64,000 nucleotides of DNA from Polyangiaceae bacterium (GTDB taxonomy: Bacteria; Myxococcota_A; Polyangia; Polyangiales; Polyangiaceae), in the NCBI GenBank assembly GCA_947475525.1, contig CANJMI010000006.1, positions 62,001 to 126,000 of the forward strand, written 5' to 3'. Positions 11,665-19,002 of this stretch are shown piece by piece. The translations under genes and the position numbers were made by a program. A model generated the notes under the pieces. That model was not told the origin of the DNA and did not search any database. It saw nothing but the letters and a program-made list of their open reading frames with translations. Position 1 is the first letter of the stretch; each line of letters begins with the position of its first letter.

Positions 11665-13836
11665 GTGATCACCAAGCAGATCCTTCTCGTCGAGAGTGAC
11701 CCAAAACAGCTGCGTCTCTTGCGCGTGGCGCTCGAGCAAGACGGCTTCGACGTCGTGCCTGCCGAAGACGGCAAGGTTGCGCTCGAGGTGCTTGAGGCGC
11801 AAGCCGTCGACCTCGTCCTCAGCGCGACGGCGCTGCCGCGTGTTGATGGCTTCGAGCTCGTCGAGGCGATGCAAGACCATGATGATTGGCAGGCGCTGCC
11901 GACGGTCTTGATGATCGATGGCGACGTGCGTGCCGCCCGCATGCGCGGCGTTCGACTCGGCGTCGAAGAGTTCCTTACCAAGCCGGTCTTCGTGAAAGAG
12001 ATGCTGGCACGGGTCCATGTGCTCCTCGCCAAACAGGTCCGTGAGCGATTGAGTGGCAACTCGACGGCGCACGCCGCGGCGGCGAAGTTGAACGGCTCGA
12101 TCGAAGACCTGCCCACCATCGATCTGCTTGAGTCCCTCGAGCAGGGCAAGCAGAGCGGCAGCGTCACCGTGACGTCGCACGGTCGCACCGCCTCCGTTTA
12201 TTTCCGCCAAGGCGCCATCGTCGACGCGACCTTGTCCCGGTTGCGCGGTGAAGAGGCCGTGTTCCGTCTGCTGACCTGGACCGAGGGTCAGTATGACGTC
12301 ACCATCGAGCCGAGCGCGCGCGCGGCGGTCGTCGAGATGGAAACCCGTGCGATGCTCGACCTCGGCGTTCGCCAGGCGGCAGAGTTCCATCGCCTCGCGG
12401 ACCAGTTGCCTCCGCTCGACTCGTGCCTCACGGTGGACCGCGCTTCGCTCGCAGAGCTCCTCGACGAGGTGCCTGAGCCGATCGAGGCGTTGCTCGCGCT
12501 CCTCGACGGTCAGCGTACGATTTTGGACGTGATCGATGCGTCGCCGTTCGACGACCGATCGACCCTGCGCACGCTGCATCAATTGTTTACCGAAGGCGTC
12601 CTCGCGGAGGTCACCGACGACGAGCCGCCGCGGTCCTTCGACCTGACCAAAATAATAACGGCTCCTGAATCTGTGGCGCCGCAAACAGCGCCGCAACCGT
12701 TTGGAAAGGCGAGCGCGCTCGCTCCGTCGTTCGCGGAGGAAGAAGCTTCGCTCGTGGCCGCCGCGCCCGTCGACGCGAAGGGGAAAAACCCTTCAGCGGG
12801 CAATGGCAAAGCCAAGTCGAAAGGCAAATCCAAAGGCAAAAGGAAGAACGGCGACGAGACGTCCAGTGTGGCTGTCGCTGCCGTGGCCGCGGCGCTCGAC
12901 GGGGCGGAGCCGTCGTCCTCGACGGGCGGCTCGAGGCCAATCGGCACCGAGCTTCAGCTGCCGTCGCCGTTCGCGCTCGCAGGCAGGAAAGGCGGAACGG
13001 AGATCGGCGGCGCACCCGCGATGAGCGACTCTGCGTCGGCACCCAACATGCCGAGCGCGTTGCCTTCGGTGGAGACCGCATCCACGCTCGATGCTGAGGC
13101 CGTCGAATCACCGGTCCCACCTTCCGCTCCGGGCGACGAGCGACCAAGCGATGAGCCGCGCTCCCTTAGCGAGAGCGGGGTCAGCAATACGTTCTTCTCG
13201 ACGCGGCCGCCGTCTGCGCCGACAGAGGAGGATGCGCCCCTCTCGTCGTCCGTGGAGTTCGACGAGCCCGTCTACTTGACGCACCACCAAATCACGCGGC
13301 GGCAGAAGAGTCGTAAACTCGTCGTTGGCGTCCTTGGGGTCATTGCGGCACTTGGGGTCTTCGCGGTGCTCGGGCCGAAGCTTTTCGGTAGCAGCGAGAA
13401 CGCCTCGACGACGAAGCCTATCGCCTCCGTGAAAGCGACCCCATCGGCCCTGGTGAAGGCGTCCGCGAACGCTCCCGCGTCAGCGGCGCCCGAACCCGCT
13501 TTAGCGGTGACCGCGCCCGCTTTAGCGGTGACCGCCGCATCGAGTGCGAGCCCCGCCGTGGTTGAGGGTCAGGCCGCGGAGGAAAACCTCCCGGATGTAC
13601 CGGAGCCCCTCAAGGCGGCGATGAACAAACTCGACGTAGGCGCGTACGCGGATGCGATCCAACTCGCCAAGGCCGCGATCAAGAAGGACCCTGAGAACGC
13701 CGATGGCTACTTCGCGCTCTTCACCGCCTACGACAGCGTCGGCAAGGGTGCTGAGGCGGCGAAGGCTCGCGCCGCGTGCGCGGCCTCAGCCACGAAGGGG
13801 CAGTACAAAGGCTACTGTCCGAAAAGGCGGCACTAA
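11665..13836 (+). CDS. Pseudo-receiver / DUF4388 (PATAN) / TPR membrane protein
   Basis: 723 residues from a GTG start. Residues 5-125 are a CheY-like receiver (ILLVESD at the acidic pocket, FLTKP lysine), but the phosphoacceptor position reads DLVLSATALP with Ala54, so it cannot be phosphorylated normally. Residues about 140-230 form a DUF4388/PATAN domain (IEDLPTIDLLESLEQGKQSG, VYFRQGAIVDA). A helical DUF follows. Then comes a long Ser/Pro/Lys low-complexity linker, a transmembrane helix near residue 550 (KLVVGVLGVIAALGVFAV) and a C-terminal TPR-like region (AYADAIQLAKAAIKKDPENA). PATAN proteins are tied to gliding and c-di-GMP-type signalling in Myxococcota. Probably coupled to the SPFH gene upstream. 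Confidence 0.8.
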   Translation: MITKQILLVESDPKQLRLLRVALEQDGFDVVPAEDGKVALEVLEAQAVDLVLSATALPRVDGFELVEAMQDHDDWQALPTVLMIDGDVRAARMRGVRLGVEEFLTKPVFVKEMLARVHVLLAKQVRERLSGNSTAHAAAAKLNGSIEDLPTIDLLESLEQGKQSGSVTVTSHGRTASVYFRQGAIVDATLSRLRGEEAVFRLLTWTEGQYDVTIEPSARAAVVEMETRAMLDLGVRQAAEFHRLADQLPPLDSCLTVDRASLAELLDEVPEPIEALLALLDGQRTILDVIDASPFDDRSTLRTLHQLFTEGVLAEVTDDEPPRSFDLTKIITAPESVAPQTAPQPFGKASALAPSFAEEEASLVAAAPVDAKGKNPSAGNGKAKSKGKSKGKRKNGDETSSVAVAAVAAALDGAEPSSSTGGSRPIGTELQLPSPFALAGRKGGTEIGGAPAMSDSASAPNMPSALPSVETASTLDAEAVESPVPPSAPGDERPSDEPRSLSESGVSNTFFSTRPPSAPTEEDAPLSSSVEFDEPVYLTHHQITRRQKSRKLVVGVLGVIAALGVFAVLGPKLFGSSENASTTKPIASVKATPSALVKASANAPASAAPEPALAVTAPALAVTAASSASPAVVEGQAAEENLPDVPEPLKAAMNKLDVGAYADAIQLAKAAIKKDPENADGYFALFTAYDSVGKGAEAAKARAACAASATKGQYKGYCPKRRH
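13495..13536 (+). repeat. Two exact-like 21-bp tandem copies inside coding sequence
   Basis: Two adjacent 21-bp units encode PALAVTA twice, in the Ala/Pro-rich periplasmic linker of the preceding CDS. A recent slippage duplication is the simplest explanation; the reading frame is kept. Confidence 0.85.
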
Positions 13837-13854: not shown

Positions 13855-14838
13855 CTATTTGCGTAGGCGCGGATCGAGCGCCACTTGCAGCGCATCCAGC
13901 ACGAACGAGGCGACCGCGACCGCGGCCGCGGCGACGATCACGGTCCCGAACAGCACGGGCGCGTCTCGATTGACGACCGCATCGACCGTGAGCGCGCCGA
14001 GTCCGGGCCAGCGAAAAAGCTTTTCGGTCACGATGGCGCCGCCGACCAACGCGCCGAACTCGAGCACGAAGAGTGTCGTCAGCGAGCCTAGGGCATTGCG
14101 CCACGCGTGGACGAAGAGCACGCGCAACCGAGAAGCGCCACGCGCCCGAGCGCTCCTGGCGAAGTCGGAGTCGAGTGCACGCCCGAGTTCTTCGCGGGCG
14201 AGCCGGGCATACAGGGCGGAGCCGTAGAGCCCAAGCGTGAGGGCGGGCAGGGCGAGGGCTCGGAGGTCACCCGCAGCGCCGTCGAGTGGCAGCCAGCCGA
14301 GGCGATGGGCAAGGACGTATTGCAGCCCTACACCGAGGACGAACGTAGGCGCGCTGACGACGAGCATCGTTGCGGCAATTGTGGCCTGGTCGGCGAACCG
14401 GCCGCGTCGATGGGCTGCGAAGGTGCCGACGCCGAGGCCGATGACGAGCTGCAGCAGCGTTGCCGCCAACGCGAGCTTTGCCGAAAGTGGCGCCTTCGCG
14501 GCGACCAGCGCGGCCACCCCTTTGCGGCTGCGATGGCTGTAACCGAGGTCGACGTGCACGGGCCCGACGGCGCTGCAGCTCTTGTGCTCGGCGCCGCTTT
14601 TAGGCGCGTGGATGAGTCGCTGCCAGAATCGCGCGCATTGGATGTGGAGCGGCTGGTCTAGGCCGTAGATCGCGCGTGCGGTCGCGACGTCGGCCGCGCT
14701 CGCCTGCGGTCCCACGAGCATGCGTACGGGATCGCCTGGCAACGTGCGGGCGAGGACGAACGCGAGGTTCGCGACCCCGACCACCAACGTGATCGAGCGC
14801 AGCAATCGCAAGGCGACTTGGCGAAGGGCTGGCTTCAC
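13855..14838 (-). CDS. DppB-type ABC transporter permease
   Basis: About 327 residues with six predicted membrane helices and the family features of the DppB/OppB subunit. These are an N-terminal helix (ITLVVGVANLAFVLARTLPG), the conserved periplasmic DPVRMLVGP stretch, and an EAA-like cytoplasmic loop (DFARSARARGASRLRVLFVH). The start is fixed by context: GTG 14838 overlaps the TGA stop of the upstream permease/binding-protein gene in a GTGA 4-bp overlap, giving VKPALRQVALRLL. It pairs with the DppC-like half of the upstream fusion to form the channel of a peptide/nickel-type importer (family 5). No ATP-binding subunit gene follows; the next gene is convergent. Confidence 0.9.
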   Translation of the reverse strand: MKPALRQVALRLLRSITLVVGVANLAFVLARTLPGDPVRMLVGPQASAADVATARAIYGLDQPLHIQCARFWQRLIHAPKSGAEHKSCSAVGPVHVDLGYSHRSRKGVAALVAAKAPLSAKLALAATLLQLVIGLGVGTFAAHRRGRFADQATIAATMLVVSAPTFVLGVGLQYVLAHRLGWLPLDGAAGDLRALALPALTLGLYGSALYARLAREELGRALDSDFARSARARGASRLRVLFVHAWRNALGSLTTLFVLEFGALVGGAIVTEKLFRWPGLGALTVDAVVNRDAPVLFGTVIVAAAAVAVASFVLDALQVALDPRLRK

Positions 14839-17372
14839 GGCAGACGCTCGACGGTTGGGTTGTTCGGCGTACGCACCTCGACGCGTGCGGCGCGCAGGTC
14901 GAGCCTTCCGTCGGCGGTTGTCGACAGCCCGCGCACGTAAGGTTGCCATACGCGGATGCGGCGACTCGAGTAGGTCGGGATCCACGGCGCTTCGTCGCGA
15001 ACGATCCCTTCGAGCTGCGCGTAAAGTTCCATGCGCTTGTCGGTCGACGCCTCGCGGCGCGCCGCGGTCGCGAGGCTGTCGAAGGCGGGATTCGCGAAGA
15101 ACGAGACGTTTTGACTGCCTTGTTCGGAGATCGCCGCACGGGTCAGCGTTGGGTCGAGTACGGCGGCCGGATCAGGGAAGTCTGGGTGCCAACTGCGCCA
15201 ACCCATCGCGCATGCGCCTCTCGTGCCGATCGCTGCGAGAAAGCTTGCGTACGCGAGAGGCTTGACGCGAATTCGCACGCCGACGCGGGCGAGTTGTTGC
15301 TGGTAGACCTCGGCTACGGATTGGTCGAGGCTCGAGGCGACGGTGACATAGTCGACAGGCTCGGGGTAGCCACCGCGACCGGTGCTCGGGTCGAAGGCGA
15401 ACCCAGCGAGGCGCATCTCTTCGAGTGCCGCCGTCACATCGTGCGTGCGATGGGGGGCATCGAGGGGCCGCGGGATCCCGTCAGGAAGGAGACGATCGCG
15501 TGGCGCGACGCTCGGGCGGAGTCGCGGCAGCACGGTTGGATCGACGGCGAACGCGACGGCGCGGCGCACGTGGCGGTTGTCGAAGGGCGCGTGCTCGGTG
15601 TTTAGAAAAATGCCATCGACCGCGCCGCTCCCGGCCCACTTGATGGTGGGGGACCATCTCGGATCGGCGGTAAAACGCTGTGAATCGATGCCGCTTAGCT
15701 CGGTGAGCACGTCCAGCTCGCCACGTTGGAACTGGAAGAGCTGGGTGCGAAACGGGACGCCGAGGCTCCAGTGTACGGCAGCCACAGTTGGGAGCCCTTT
15801 GAGGTAATAGCCATCGAATCGGCTGAGTTCGAGGCTCTCCTCGTGGCGGCGAGCGAGTCGAAATGGTCCGGCTCCGCAGGGCGGCGGGGCAGTCGGATCG
15901 GCGTGGTCGAGTCCGGTGTCACACACCGGTGCGGTGAAGCCCAGGCCAAGGAGCGAAGGGAAGGCGGCATCTGCGACCGCGAGGTCGACAGTCAGCTCGA
16001 GTTCGGCTGCGATGATGAGGCCCGCAAGGTGACGGGTGCGCCTCGCACGAAAGTCCGCGAAGCCCGCGATCGCCGAGAATTCACTCGCGGCCGGGCACGG
16101 TGTGTCGGGGTGCAGCGTGCGTTCGATGCTGCGCTTGACGTCGCTTGCGCCGAGCGGCGAGCCATCGTGGAACGTAAGCCCCTGGCGCAGCACGACGCGA
16201 ACACGCGTACCGCCGTTCTCGATGACGAACCGTTCGGCGAGCTCCCCGACGAGCTCCCCTTTTTCGTTGCGACCGAGGAGGCGCGCGTGGACGAGCTCAT
16301 CAACGGCAAGGCCCGTTTCGTCACTGATGAGCGACGGGTCCAGCGAGCCGATGGTGGTCGACGAGGCGAGTCGAAGCACCTCGCCGCCGTGCGGGGAGGC
16401 CGCGAGTGGCGCGTCGAGTGCAGCGGCCCCTGAGAACCCGACGAGCACGCAGAGGAGCCCGCCGAGGACGAGGGCATCGGCGGGAAATGGAGAACGTGAA
16501 CGCAGTGATTTCTCTGCGAGCGCATCACCGAGGCCATCCGCGACGCGGGTGAAGCCGAAGACCGTCAGCACAATCGCGAACGCCGGAGCACCGACGAGCA
16601 ATGGCTGCGCGCCGAGGTAATGCTCGGCTTCCTGGAGCATCCGCCCGAAGCTCGCCTGGGGCGGTCCGACCCCGACGGTCAAGTAGCCGAGCACCGCCTC
16701 GGCGAGCACGAGCTGCCCGACCGCTTGCGAGCCAAGGACCAGCAGCGTGCCGCGCAAGCTCGCAAGCACGTGCCGACCGACGATCGCGCTCTCCCGTACG
16801 CCGAGCGCGCGCGCGGCGAGGATGTAGTCACGCCGTTTGATCTCCAGGGTCCGCGCCCGAACGAGTCGCGCCATGCCGACCCAGCTCGTCACACCAAGAA
16901 TCAGCGCAATGGTCGCCGGGCCCGCTCGATCCACCGCGACCCCGATCGCGGTAACGAGCAAAAGGTATGGGAAAGCGAGCGCCAAGTCGAGCAGCCAGGT
17001 AAGGGCGCCGTCCACGACACGGAGGCGCGTGCCTTCGCAAAAACCCGCCACAACGCCGACGATGGTCCCCAGGAAAAGGGCGACAACGGTGGCTGACAGT
17101 GCGACCCCTAAAGACAGGCGGGCGCCTGCTCCGAGACGCGCGAGCACGTCGCGGAAGAGTGGATCGGCCCCCAGCGGATGCGCGAATGACGGTGCCGGTG
17201 GGCCACCGATGGCGCTGCGGGGGAGAGCGAAATCGCTCACATTCGGATCGTAAGGGATCAAAACTGGCGCGAGGCAGGTGAACGCCAGGAGCAATGCGAC
17301 GATTCCGAGTCCGAACATCGCCGGGCGGTTCGCGCGAAAGCGCCTCCACCGCGTCGGCGGCGCCGTGTTCAT
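14835..17372 (-). CDS. Fusion of DppC-type permease and family 5 solute-binding protein
   Basis: 845 residues joining two normally separate subunits. Residues about 15-285 are a DppC-like permease (MFGLGIVALLLAF; HPLGADPLFRDVLARLG; EAA loop RDYILAARALGVRESAI). An extra membrane helix at about 298-315 (ALVLGGLLCVLVGFSGAA) would carry the chain outside. Residues about 328-840 form an extracytoplasmic solute-binding protein family 5 domain (LDPSLISDETGLAVDELVHA, GLTFHDGSPLGASDVKRS, CGAGPFRL, IFLNTEHAPFDNRHVRRAV). The start ATG 17372 overlaps the stop of the upstream hydrolase (ATGA), and its own stop overlaps the start of the DppB gene. The substrate is probably a short peptide or similar, but this is inference. 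Confidence 0.9.
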   Translation of the reverse strand: MNTAPPTRWRRFRANRPAMFGLGIVALLLAFTCLAPVLIPYDPNVSDFALPRSAIGGPPAPSFAHPLGADPLFRDVLARLGAGARLSLGVALSATVVALFLGTIVGVVAGFCEGTRLRVVDGALTWLLDLALAFPYLLLVTAIGVAVDRAGPATIALILGVTSWVGMARLVRARTLEIKRRDYILAARALGVRESAIVGRHVLASLRGTLLVLGSQAVGQLVLAEAVLGYLTVGVGPPQASFGRMLQEAEHYLGAQPLLVGAPAFAIVLTVFGFTRVADGLGDALAEKSLRSRSPFPADALVLGGLLCVLVGFSGAAALDAPLAASPHGGEVLRLASSTTIGSLDPSLISDETGLAVDELVHARLLGRNEKGELVGELAERFVIENGGTRVRVVLRQGLTFHDGSPLGASDVKRSIERTLHPDTPCPAASEFSAIAGFADFRARRTRHLAGLIIAAELELTVDLAVADAAFPSLLGLGFTAPVCDTGLDHADPTAPPPCGAGPFRLARRHEESLELSRFDGYYLKGLPTVAAVHWSLGVPFRTQLFQFQRGELDVLTELSGIDSQRFTADPRWSPTIKWAGSGAVDGIFLNTEHAPFDNRHVRRAVAFAVDPTVLPRLRPSVAPRDRLLPDGIPRPLDAPHRTHDVTAALEEMRLAGFAFDPSTGRGGYPEPVDYVTVASSLDQSVAEVYQQQLARVGVRIRVKPLAYASFLAAIGTRGACAMGWRSWHPDFPDPAAVLDPTLTRAAISEQGSQNVSFFANPAFDSLATAARREASTDKRMELYAQLEGIVRDEAPWIPTYSSRRIRVWQPYVRGLSTTADGRLDLRAARVEVRTPNNPTVERLP

Positions 17373-18190
17373 CCTCGCTTGCCCTCGCAATACTCCCGAA
17401 CGACGAGGACAAAGTCGTGCGGCCGTTCGGCGTGGGGAGCGTGGGCCGTGTCGAATAGCTCGAGCCGCGCGTCGGGGATTTCACGCACGAGCTTCAAGGC
17501 CTGGTGCGCTGGAAACATCCGGTCCTCTCGTCCCCAGGTGACGAGCGTCGGGCGGCGGATCCGCGTGATGCGCGCCACCGTGGGCCGAGTGTCGAGCATG
17601 CTTCTCAGCACGGCATAAGCGCTCTCGCGTCCCGACGGGCTGTTGAACGCCTCGTAGTTTTGGTCGACTTCAGCGGGGAGCGCGAACTCGGCCCCATACA
17701 CCCACTGCCGGAAGTGCTTCCGAAAGGCGCGGAGCCCGAAAAACTGCTTGAAGAAGACACTGCCGACGATCGGAATGAGGTGCAGCTTGAAGATCGCGTC
17801 CGCTTGAAAAGCGTAGCAGAGCGGGGCCACCAGGATAAGCCGGCTGACCAGCTCGGGGTGCAGCGCGGCCAACGTGATGCCCACCGCGCCACCGAGTCCG
17901 TGGCCCACCACAAGTGCGCGACCGAGCCCATACGCGGAAATCAGATCAGCGATGGCCTCCGCAAACGCTTCGACCCCGTAGTTGTACCGGGTGGGACTCG
18001 GCTTTTCGCTGTCGCCAGAGCCCGGCAAGTCGGGAGCGATCACATGAAAATGGGGTGCGAAAAGGTCGATAACCTCGTCGAATTCGAGGTGCGTCGAGAG
18101 AAAGCCGTGGACCAAAACCAGCGGTGGACCGTTGCCCGCGCCCGCTTCAACGACGCGCATTCGGACGCCCTGAGCGGTGACGTCGCGCAT
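17369..18190 (-). CDS. Alpha/beta-hydrolase-fold protein lacking the serine nucleophile
   Basis: About 273 residues with the alpha/beta hydrolase fold: oxyanion strand VLVHGFLSTHLEFD, APDLPGSGDS, the elbow VVGHGLGGAVG, acid TWGREDRMFP and late histidine DTAHAPHAERP. At the nucleophile elbow GxSxG the central residue is Gly98 (codon at 17897-17899), so the usual Ser/Asp/Cys nucleophile is absent while the acid and histidine remain. It may be a non-catalytic binding protein or use another mechanism. ATG 18190 (MRDVTAQGVRMRVVEAG) fits the usual family start; GTG 18214 and TTG 18262 are alternatives. It is first in the coupled operon with the fused permease and DppB. Confidence 0.8.
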   Translation of the reverse strand: MRDVTAQGVRMRVVEAGAGNGPPLVLVHGFLSTHLEFDEVIDLFAPHFHVIAPDLPGSGDSEKPSPTRYNYGVEAFAEAIADLISAYGLGRALVVGHGLGGAVGITLAALHPELVSRLILVAPLCYAFQADAIFKLHLIPIVGSVFFKQFFGLRAFRKHFRQWVYGAEFALPAEVDQNYEAFNSPSGRESAYAVLRSMLDTRPTVARITRIRRPTLVTWGREDRMFPAHQALKLVREIPDARLELFDTAHAPHAERPHDFVLVVREYCEGKRG

Positions 18191-18331
18191 CGTCCGCAAA
18201 ACCTCGGAGCTCACGCGTGTATTCAAGTACTTGTAAGCGTTCGATGTCAAACGCGAGGTCAAGGGCCGCGTCGAATGGTCGTTTTTCGCTCAGGACAAAG
18301 AATGTCCGCCCATAACGCATGACGCGCAAAA

Positions 18332-18407: not shown

Positions 18408-18459
18408 CGCCCACGCTTTGAGTCTGGCCATGTTACGGCCAGCAAGAGGTCGAGACGCG

Positions 18460-19002
18460 ATGAGTAAGGTGGCGGAGAGCACGCTTGAGCAGGTCGAACG
18501 CGACCACTCGACGGGCATTTCGTCGGTGGACCTCCTCGCGTTTTTCGAGGGCCAGGAGATTCGCTTCGGAGAGGCGACCCTCCGCAAGTGGGTGCAACTC
18601 GGGCTCCTTCCGCGCAGCGTGCGCGTTGGGCGCAAGGGCAAGCACCAGGGCTCTAAGGGCAAGTATCCAGTGCGCGTCGTTCGGCAGATCCTTCGTATCA
18701 AGGACCTGATGGACAAGGACATCACGATCGAGGACATCCAGAAGCAAATTCTTTTCGTGCGTGGGGACATCGACGAACTCGAAACCACGCTCGACAAGGT
18801 GTTCGCTTCGCTCGAGCGAAATGTCGCACGGCGTTCGAGTGCCGACGCCACCGCATCCCTCACTGGGCTGCGCGTGGTGAAGGCCGACATCGCTCGGGCG
18901 CGCGCTCAAGCCGACGACTTGCTCGTGCGGCTGGAGAGTCTCGAGGAGCGGCTCATCAGCGAGCCCGACACCGGTCGCGAGGACCACGTCGTAGCCTCCT
19001 GA
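18460..19002 (+). CDS. MerR-like transcriptional regulator
   Basis: 180 residues. The N-terminal winged helix-turn-helix reads ISSVDLLAFF, FGEATLRKWVQLGLLPRSV, a basic wing (RVGRKGKHQGSKGKYP) and VRVVRQILRIKDLMDKDITI, the layout of MerR-family DNA-binding domains. The rest is a helical, probably coiled-coil, region (residues 85-165) that would mediate dimerisation. No effector-binding cysteine motif is seen, so the inducer is unknown. The start ATG 18460 has AGAGGT 9 nt upstream. A candidate promoter with a dyad in its spacer lies 53 bp upstream. The gene is followed by a sigma region 4-like gene on the same strand after a 181-bp gap. Confidence 0.8.
   Translation: MSKVAESTLEQVERDHSTGISSVDLLAFFEGQEIRFGEATLRKWVQLGLLPRSVRVGRKGKHQGSKGKYPVRVVRQILRIKDLMDKDITIEDIQKQILFVRGDIDELETTLDKVFASLERNVARRSSADATASLTGLRVVKADIARARAQADDLLVRLESLEERLISEPDTGREDHVVAS

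Follow-up and report, generated by a model that had tools for sequence, protein, structure and literature searches.

A DppC-type permease fused to a family 5 solute-binding protein in Polyangiales, with an orphan dppD-dppF pair as its candidate motor

Introduction

How would a peptide-class ABC importer be built and powered if one of its two permeases carried the binding protein in the same chain and no ATPase were encoded in its operon? Among importers of amino acids and betaine there are known cases in which a binding domain is fused to the permease, and ATPases encoded in the same operon are usual, if not strictly defining, for family 5 importers. For a fusion between a family 5 permease and its solute-binding protein (SBP), we found no published example in the open-access literature searched. 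A gene of this kind lies on a contig of a Polyangiaceae bacterium (CANJMI010000006.1), in a stretch of 64,000 nucleotides that was analysed as a whole and is here called the window. An original prediction, made from the sequence of the window, had pointed to this gene, to its coupling with two neighbours and to an ATPase that would have to be shared or encoded elsewhere.

Results

The fusion gene and its operon

On the minus strand of the window, the operon runs from a hydrolase-fold gene through the fusion to dppB. Its features, in window coordinates, are the following:

17369..18262, minus strand: alpha/beta-hydrolase-fold gene of the operon, with the nucleophile Ser changed to Gly
14835..17372, minus strand: DppC::SBP fusion gene, 845 residues from the ATG at 17372; alternative start TTG at 17390
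16503..17372, minus strand: DppC-type permease part (OppC_N and BPD_transp_1), for which homology to E. coli DppC and OppC gives six transmembrane (TM) helices
16740..16832, minus strand: EAA (coupling) loop RDYILAARALGVRESAIVGRHVLASLRG, residues 187-217, intact
16416..16472, minus strand: added seventh TM helix, residues 307-325, mean hydropathy 2.3
14838..16385, minus strand: family 5 solute-binding domain, with the SBP_bac_5 core at 15135-16256
15180..15182, minus strand: Asp737 codon; this residue of WHPDFPDP does not vary among the aligned SBPs
13855..14838, minus strand: DppB-type permease, with its GTG start inside the GTGA overlap with the fusion stop; BPD_transp_1_N
18418..19002, plus strand: divergent MerR-like gene, a candidate regulator, with a weak Pfam match under the cut-off; kept beside the operon

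The 4-bp overlaps that had been predicted to couple the fusion to DppB and to the hydrolase-like gene were both located: ATGA at 17369-17372 holds the stop codon of the hydrolase-fold gene and the start codon of the fusion, and GTGA at 14835-14838 the stop codon of the fusion and the GTG start of DppB. The frame is free of internal stops from 14835 to 17390 on the minus strand of the window and would encode 851 residues if the TTG at 17390 were used. In this 851-residue numbering, Pfam places OppC_N at residues 15-54 (E 1.1e-11), BPD_transp_1 at 108-293 (E 3.1e-16) and SBP_bac_5 at 379-752 (E 2.5e-49), each above its curated cut-off (168.8 bits against 32.4 for SBP_bac_5). The last is the only binding-domain family matched in the fusion, with no match to OpuAC or SBP_bac_3. 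Frame, Pfam domains and coordinates agree with the original prediction of a single frame that holds a complete DppC-like permease with its EAA loop, an added helix and a full SBP domain; the two domains that it had named for the 845-residue product, BPD_transp_1 and SBP_bac_5, are both found, in addition to OppC_N. The best PDB match of the permease part is E. coli OppC, with OppC and DppC both aligning end to end, and the best PDB relatives of the second part are peptide-binding SBPs. By sequence, the gene most likely encodes a subunit of a peptide-class (family 5) ABC importer, a DppC joined to a binding protein of its own. We also considered, and rejected, an internal start from which the SBP would be translated separately, as in-frame starts occur near the junction in most fused genes, with none at a conserved place.

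The Asp of the WxADFPDP motif is invariant in all 51 aligned SBPs and stands at what we take to be the position of the OppA Asp that binds the ligand amine, or peptide N-terminus. Since it is invariant, the ligand probably carries a free amine and would be peptide-like or another amine.

The nucleophile elbow of the hydrolase-fold protein reads GH[G/A]xG in 34 of 36 relatives, with a Ser only in G175 and G176, and the Asp and His of the operon's protein are retained even though its nucleophile is gone; it may be a pseudo-enzyme that has been conserved, or else an enzyme of an unusual kind. At the other end of the operon, a gene for a receiver and DUF4388 protein (window 11665-13836, plus strand) is convergent to dppB and conserved across much of the family.

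Conservation of the fused form

Homologues were searched for in 59 relatives, then in 183 genomes of the order and then in a draw of 377 genomes from the phylum. Frame and stops were tested directly at the loci fetched, 27 of them fused and 23 split, and G178 provides one further fused case. This survey, which the original prediction had proposed, found the identical single-frame architecture in 28 genomes, at 35-58% identity. All 28 fused loci share the operon, with MerR, alpha/beta hydrolase, DppC::SBP and DppB, and the DppB gene is present in all relatives read. In about two dozen relatives DppC and SBP are adjacent separate genes, in a neighbourhood identical to that of the fused form. The single-frame form was found inside the window's order only, within a phylum draw of 377 genomes that is a sample and from which distant fusions under the E-value limit may escape. 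Two apparent fusions were rejected: G076, seen in the match table, has a stop between its two genes, and G135 has a TAG between them and keeps a lipobox. A scan of contig collections for relatives returned one distant actinobacterial locus only, which was left unused, and in the best plasmid records listed the match falls into two pieces, on separate genes where annotated.

Could an assembly artefact or a missed frameshift have joined two genes? The ancestral state was likely one of adjacent separate genes, which are easily joined, yet no direct sign of such an error was found, the fusion is uninterrupted in the 28 genomes, single-contig ones included, and the codon-position GC pattern of the fusion gene is unbroken across the junction between permease and SBP; the probability that we leave to an artefact is negligible. 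The missed stop or frameshift between the domains, of which the original prediction had warned, did not show in any of these genomes. Because the same fusion is conserved in all 28 of them, it is genuine and not an artefact of sequencing.

Origin of the fusion and of the seventh helix

Because split genes occur in every family read, the split state is taken as ancestral. A maximum-likelihood tree built from DppC plus SBP assigns two changes to the fused state, in counts that leave gain and loss indistinguishable: one fused clade of 26 members makes up the case of the window's family (support 100/100), and the second, G053, belongs to another family and stands beside the split G048. G178, from the genus of G053, is fused too. 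The tree would need two separate fusion events. In many split relatives the start codon of the SBP lies within the codons for RDALDP at the C-terminus of DppC, with an overlap of 26 bp in the +1 frame, so that a small indel or the loss of a stop would fuse the two genes.

A lipobox Cys closes the N-terminal hydrophobic stretch in 21 of the 23 split SBPs (e.g., GALGC, followed by SNRIAPPIG), and none of the 27 fused proteins has a Cys at this ancestral position; the few that carry one have it deeper within the helix, out of register with the lipobox. The hydrophobic stretch itself is retained in the fused proteins, with a minimum mean hydropathy of 1.85 over 15 residues, and is followed by a Pro-rich motif in nearly all of them. 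By these comparisons, the added helix arose by conversion of the signal peptide that the ancestral SBP had as a separate lipoprotein, with loss of the lipobox Cys. In families f3 and f5, the split SBPs (L071 in G048 and L072 in G040) have a long N-terminal helix and no lipobox, and a helix anchor may there have preceded the fusion.

E. coli DppC has six helices, and its coupling loop between TM4 and TM5 faces the ATPase (PMC12136057), so that its C-terminus lies in the cytoplasm and an SBP that follows a seventh helix would come to lie outside. Homology to this six-helix DppC with a cytoplasmic C-terminus, together with hydropathy and the descent of the helix from a signal peptide, supports the placing of the binding domain outside the membrane that had been predicted, rather than in the cytoplasm, and we infer an SBP tethered there 1:1 to the permease. 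In 18 of the 27 fused forms the side expected to be cytoplasmic has the higher net charge, in weak agreement with the charge rule. A single-sequence AlphaFold model of the fusion, with a pLDDT of 38, was discarded.

ATPases encoded elsewhere

By reading, no ABC ATPase was found among the open reading frames listed for 10-24 kb of the window, and none stands beside the operon in any relative's neighbourhood read, as had been predicted for the surroundings of the fusion. Its absence is an old trait that belongs to the operon as a whole, independent of the fusion. The window genome (G000) has two DppDF pairs with oligo_HPY, one inside a complete SBP-B-C-D-F opp operon on the same contig as the fusion, the other an orphan at the end of contig C25. 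The orphan, on a contig other than that of the fusion and conserved across the order, is the DppD/DppF pair that the original prediction had suggested to look for, and it supports the view that the ATPase is shared or encoded elsewhere. An orphan dppD-dppF was found away from the fusion operon in every genome examined for the pair, and the surroundings fetched for 20 such loci in relatives contain neither a permease nor an SBP that could be recognised.

Several genomes have a single SBP_5. G147, a single contig with an estimated contamination of 15%, has the fusion at 3.25 Mb as its one SBP_5 and one DppDF pair at 9.78 Mb; G048, a single contig with the split form, has one SBP_5 and one DppDF pair, 0.85 Mb apart; and in G003, G017, G033 and G053 the fusion is the sole SBP_5, with one DppDF pair each. 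Evolutionary distances of DppC and the orphan DppF are correlated (r 0.79; partial correlation 0.70 given MerR, about 0.0005 by permutation), which, with a small and noisy protein as the MerR control, counts as supporting evidence only; for DppB and the orphan DppD the partial correlation is lower, at 0.25. In E. coli, it is DppF that DppC contacts (PMC12136057). Within the window genome the pairing is not forced, because this genome also contains a complete opp operon, ATPases included, and a permease pair without SBP.

This second Dpp-like permease pair (L020:4249-6716 on contig C17 of the window genome; L145:6282-8752 in G003) has no adjoining SBP or ATPase, and its DppB-like protein, which contains a large insert, is 498 aa long; the orphan DppDF may serve this pair too. 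In the SBP of the opp operon (L012:4111-6642; contig C6, 144-146 kb), an insert of about 160 aa splits SBP_bac_5, and the match is split in this way in several relatives. Directly upstream of the orphan dppD on contig C25, and overlapping it by 4 bp, lies the gene of a protein that has a DNRLRE domain and, close to the N-terminus, a Cys (L018:2073-2909), and a small gene of the DNRLRE type is kept near the orphan dppD in much of the family.

Discussion

Proposed mechanism and alternatives

We propose, with a probability of about 0.7, that the locus encodes a peptide-class importer with a DppC-tethered SBP, powered in trans by the distant DppD/DppF. The old signal peptide would stay uncleaved as TM7 and bring about the export of the SBP, and the translocator, formed by DppB and DppC::SBP, would have one tethered binding domain and no more. 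This SBP would catch a small, peptide-like ligand with a free amine and, once loaded, dock on the DppB/DppC translocator to which it belongs, while DppD/DppF from the distant locus would bind both EAA loops and drive ATP-dependent uptake.

We consider it unlikely that the fusion is a precursor that signal peptidase cuts after TM7, freeing an ordinary periplasmic SBP and leaving the fusion to set 1:1 synthesis alone. TM7 does derive from a cleavable signal peptide, and loose motifs like those of signal peptidase I (A-x-A-like) follow the helix in 14 of the 27 fused forms, with AAA at this place in the window protein, but no cleavage site is conserved and many have Arg/Pro right behind the helix (IRPAPVAPP, SPSRVRPP). 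Moreover, the ancestral site was a lipobox, which is gone from all fused forms, and the f3/f5 split relatives already have their long, lipobox-free helix.

Two further alternatives concern the ATPases. With two pairs of DppDF and three of Dpp-like permeases, the window genome would allow the orphan DppDF to serve mainly other permeases, such as the SBP-less pair on C17, and the fusion to use the ATPases of the opp operon; against this improbable arrangement stand G003, G017, G033, G053 and G147, which have the fusion and one DppDF pair only, and G048 and G053, in which no second DppC-like permease appears at E 1e-20. Alternatively, the complex might be a peptide sensor, in which the tethered SBP and the permease signal to MerR or to the hydrolase-like protein, with no ATP-driven transport. 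The lack of an ATPase in the operon of any relative read, the conserved MerR-like neighbour and the hydrolase homologue without nucleophile would suit such a role, which we nevertheless judge very improbable: the permease keeps its EAA loop, the orphan DppDF is present wherever it was looked for, and some genomes offer no other SBP_5 for it to serve.

In the reading that we prefer, a tethered importer powered in trans, the heterodimeric permease would leave each transporter with a single tethered binding domain, and the effects of tethering on docking and rate could be studied cleanly. A comparison of split with fused relatives shows how the loss of its lipobox could turn an overlapping lipoprotein gene into a membrane-anchored domain, and the conservation of a distant dppDF across the order suggests an importer motor that is inherited apart from its body.

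More tentatively, the exchange of a lipid anchor for a protein anchor might keep the only or main family 5 SBP at the inner membrane, near its permease, and remove the risk that it is sorted to the outer one. On this reading the system would be the first peptide importer to have a binding domain, and just one, built into it, with power from a dedicated or shared DppDF pair encoded elsewhere. In Myxococcus xanthus, 8 of 12 inner-membrane lipoproteins have a Lys at +2 (PMC3222651); its absence there from all 21 split lipoprotein SBPs speaks, if weakly, for such a swap of anchors against outer-membrane sorting.

Comparison with known systems

As far as we found in the open-access literature, the combination suggested here by the sequences, of family 5, a heterodimeric permease, the conversion of a lipobox into a helix and a separately encoded ATPase, is unreported, although its elements have counterparts. 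With DppABCDF and OppABCDF of E. coli the system shares DppB and DppC with OppC_N and EAA loops, a family 5 SBP, DppD/DppF with oligo_HPY and a Cys-rich C-terminus, and a heterodimeric translocator; it differs in that the SBP is joined to DppC via a seventh helix and the ATPase genes are found at other places in the genome. GlnPQ and OpuA are known examples of tethered binding domains (PMC8025302, PMC11065425), and in them, as here, the domain is covalently linked to the transmembrane subunit; it lies outside the membrane there, the position predicted for the fused SBP. These importers, however, use other SBP families and homodimeric permeases, which yield two or four binding domains, whereas the heterodimer described here would have one, at the C-terminus of only one of its two different permeases, DppC.

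The separation of the ATPase from the permease and SBP that it powers would be shared with the multitask ATPase MsmX, a single ATPase that serves sugar importers (PMC7658222), while here the candidate is a DppD/DppF pair, which may serve one permease or more. Finally, the lipoprotein SBPs of Gram-positive and some Gram-negative bacteria are likewise held at the membrane, likely the ancestral state of the present system and the one seen in its split relatives, but they are held by a lipid anchor, in whose place the fused proteins have a protein helix.
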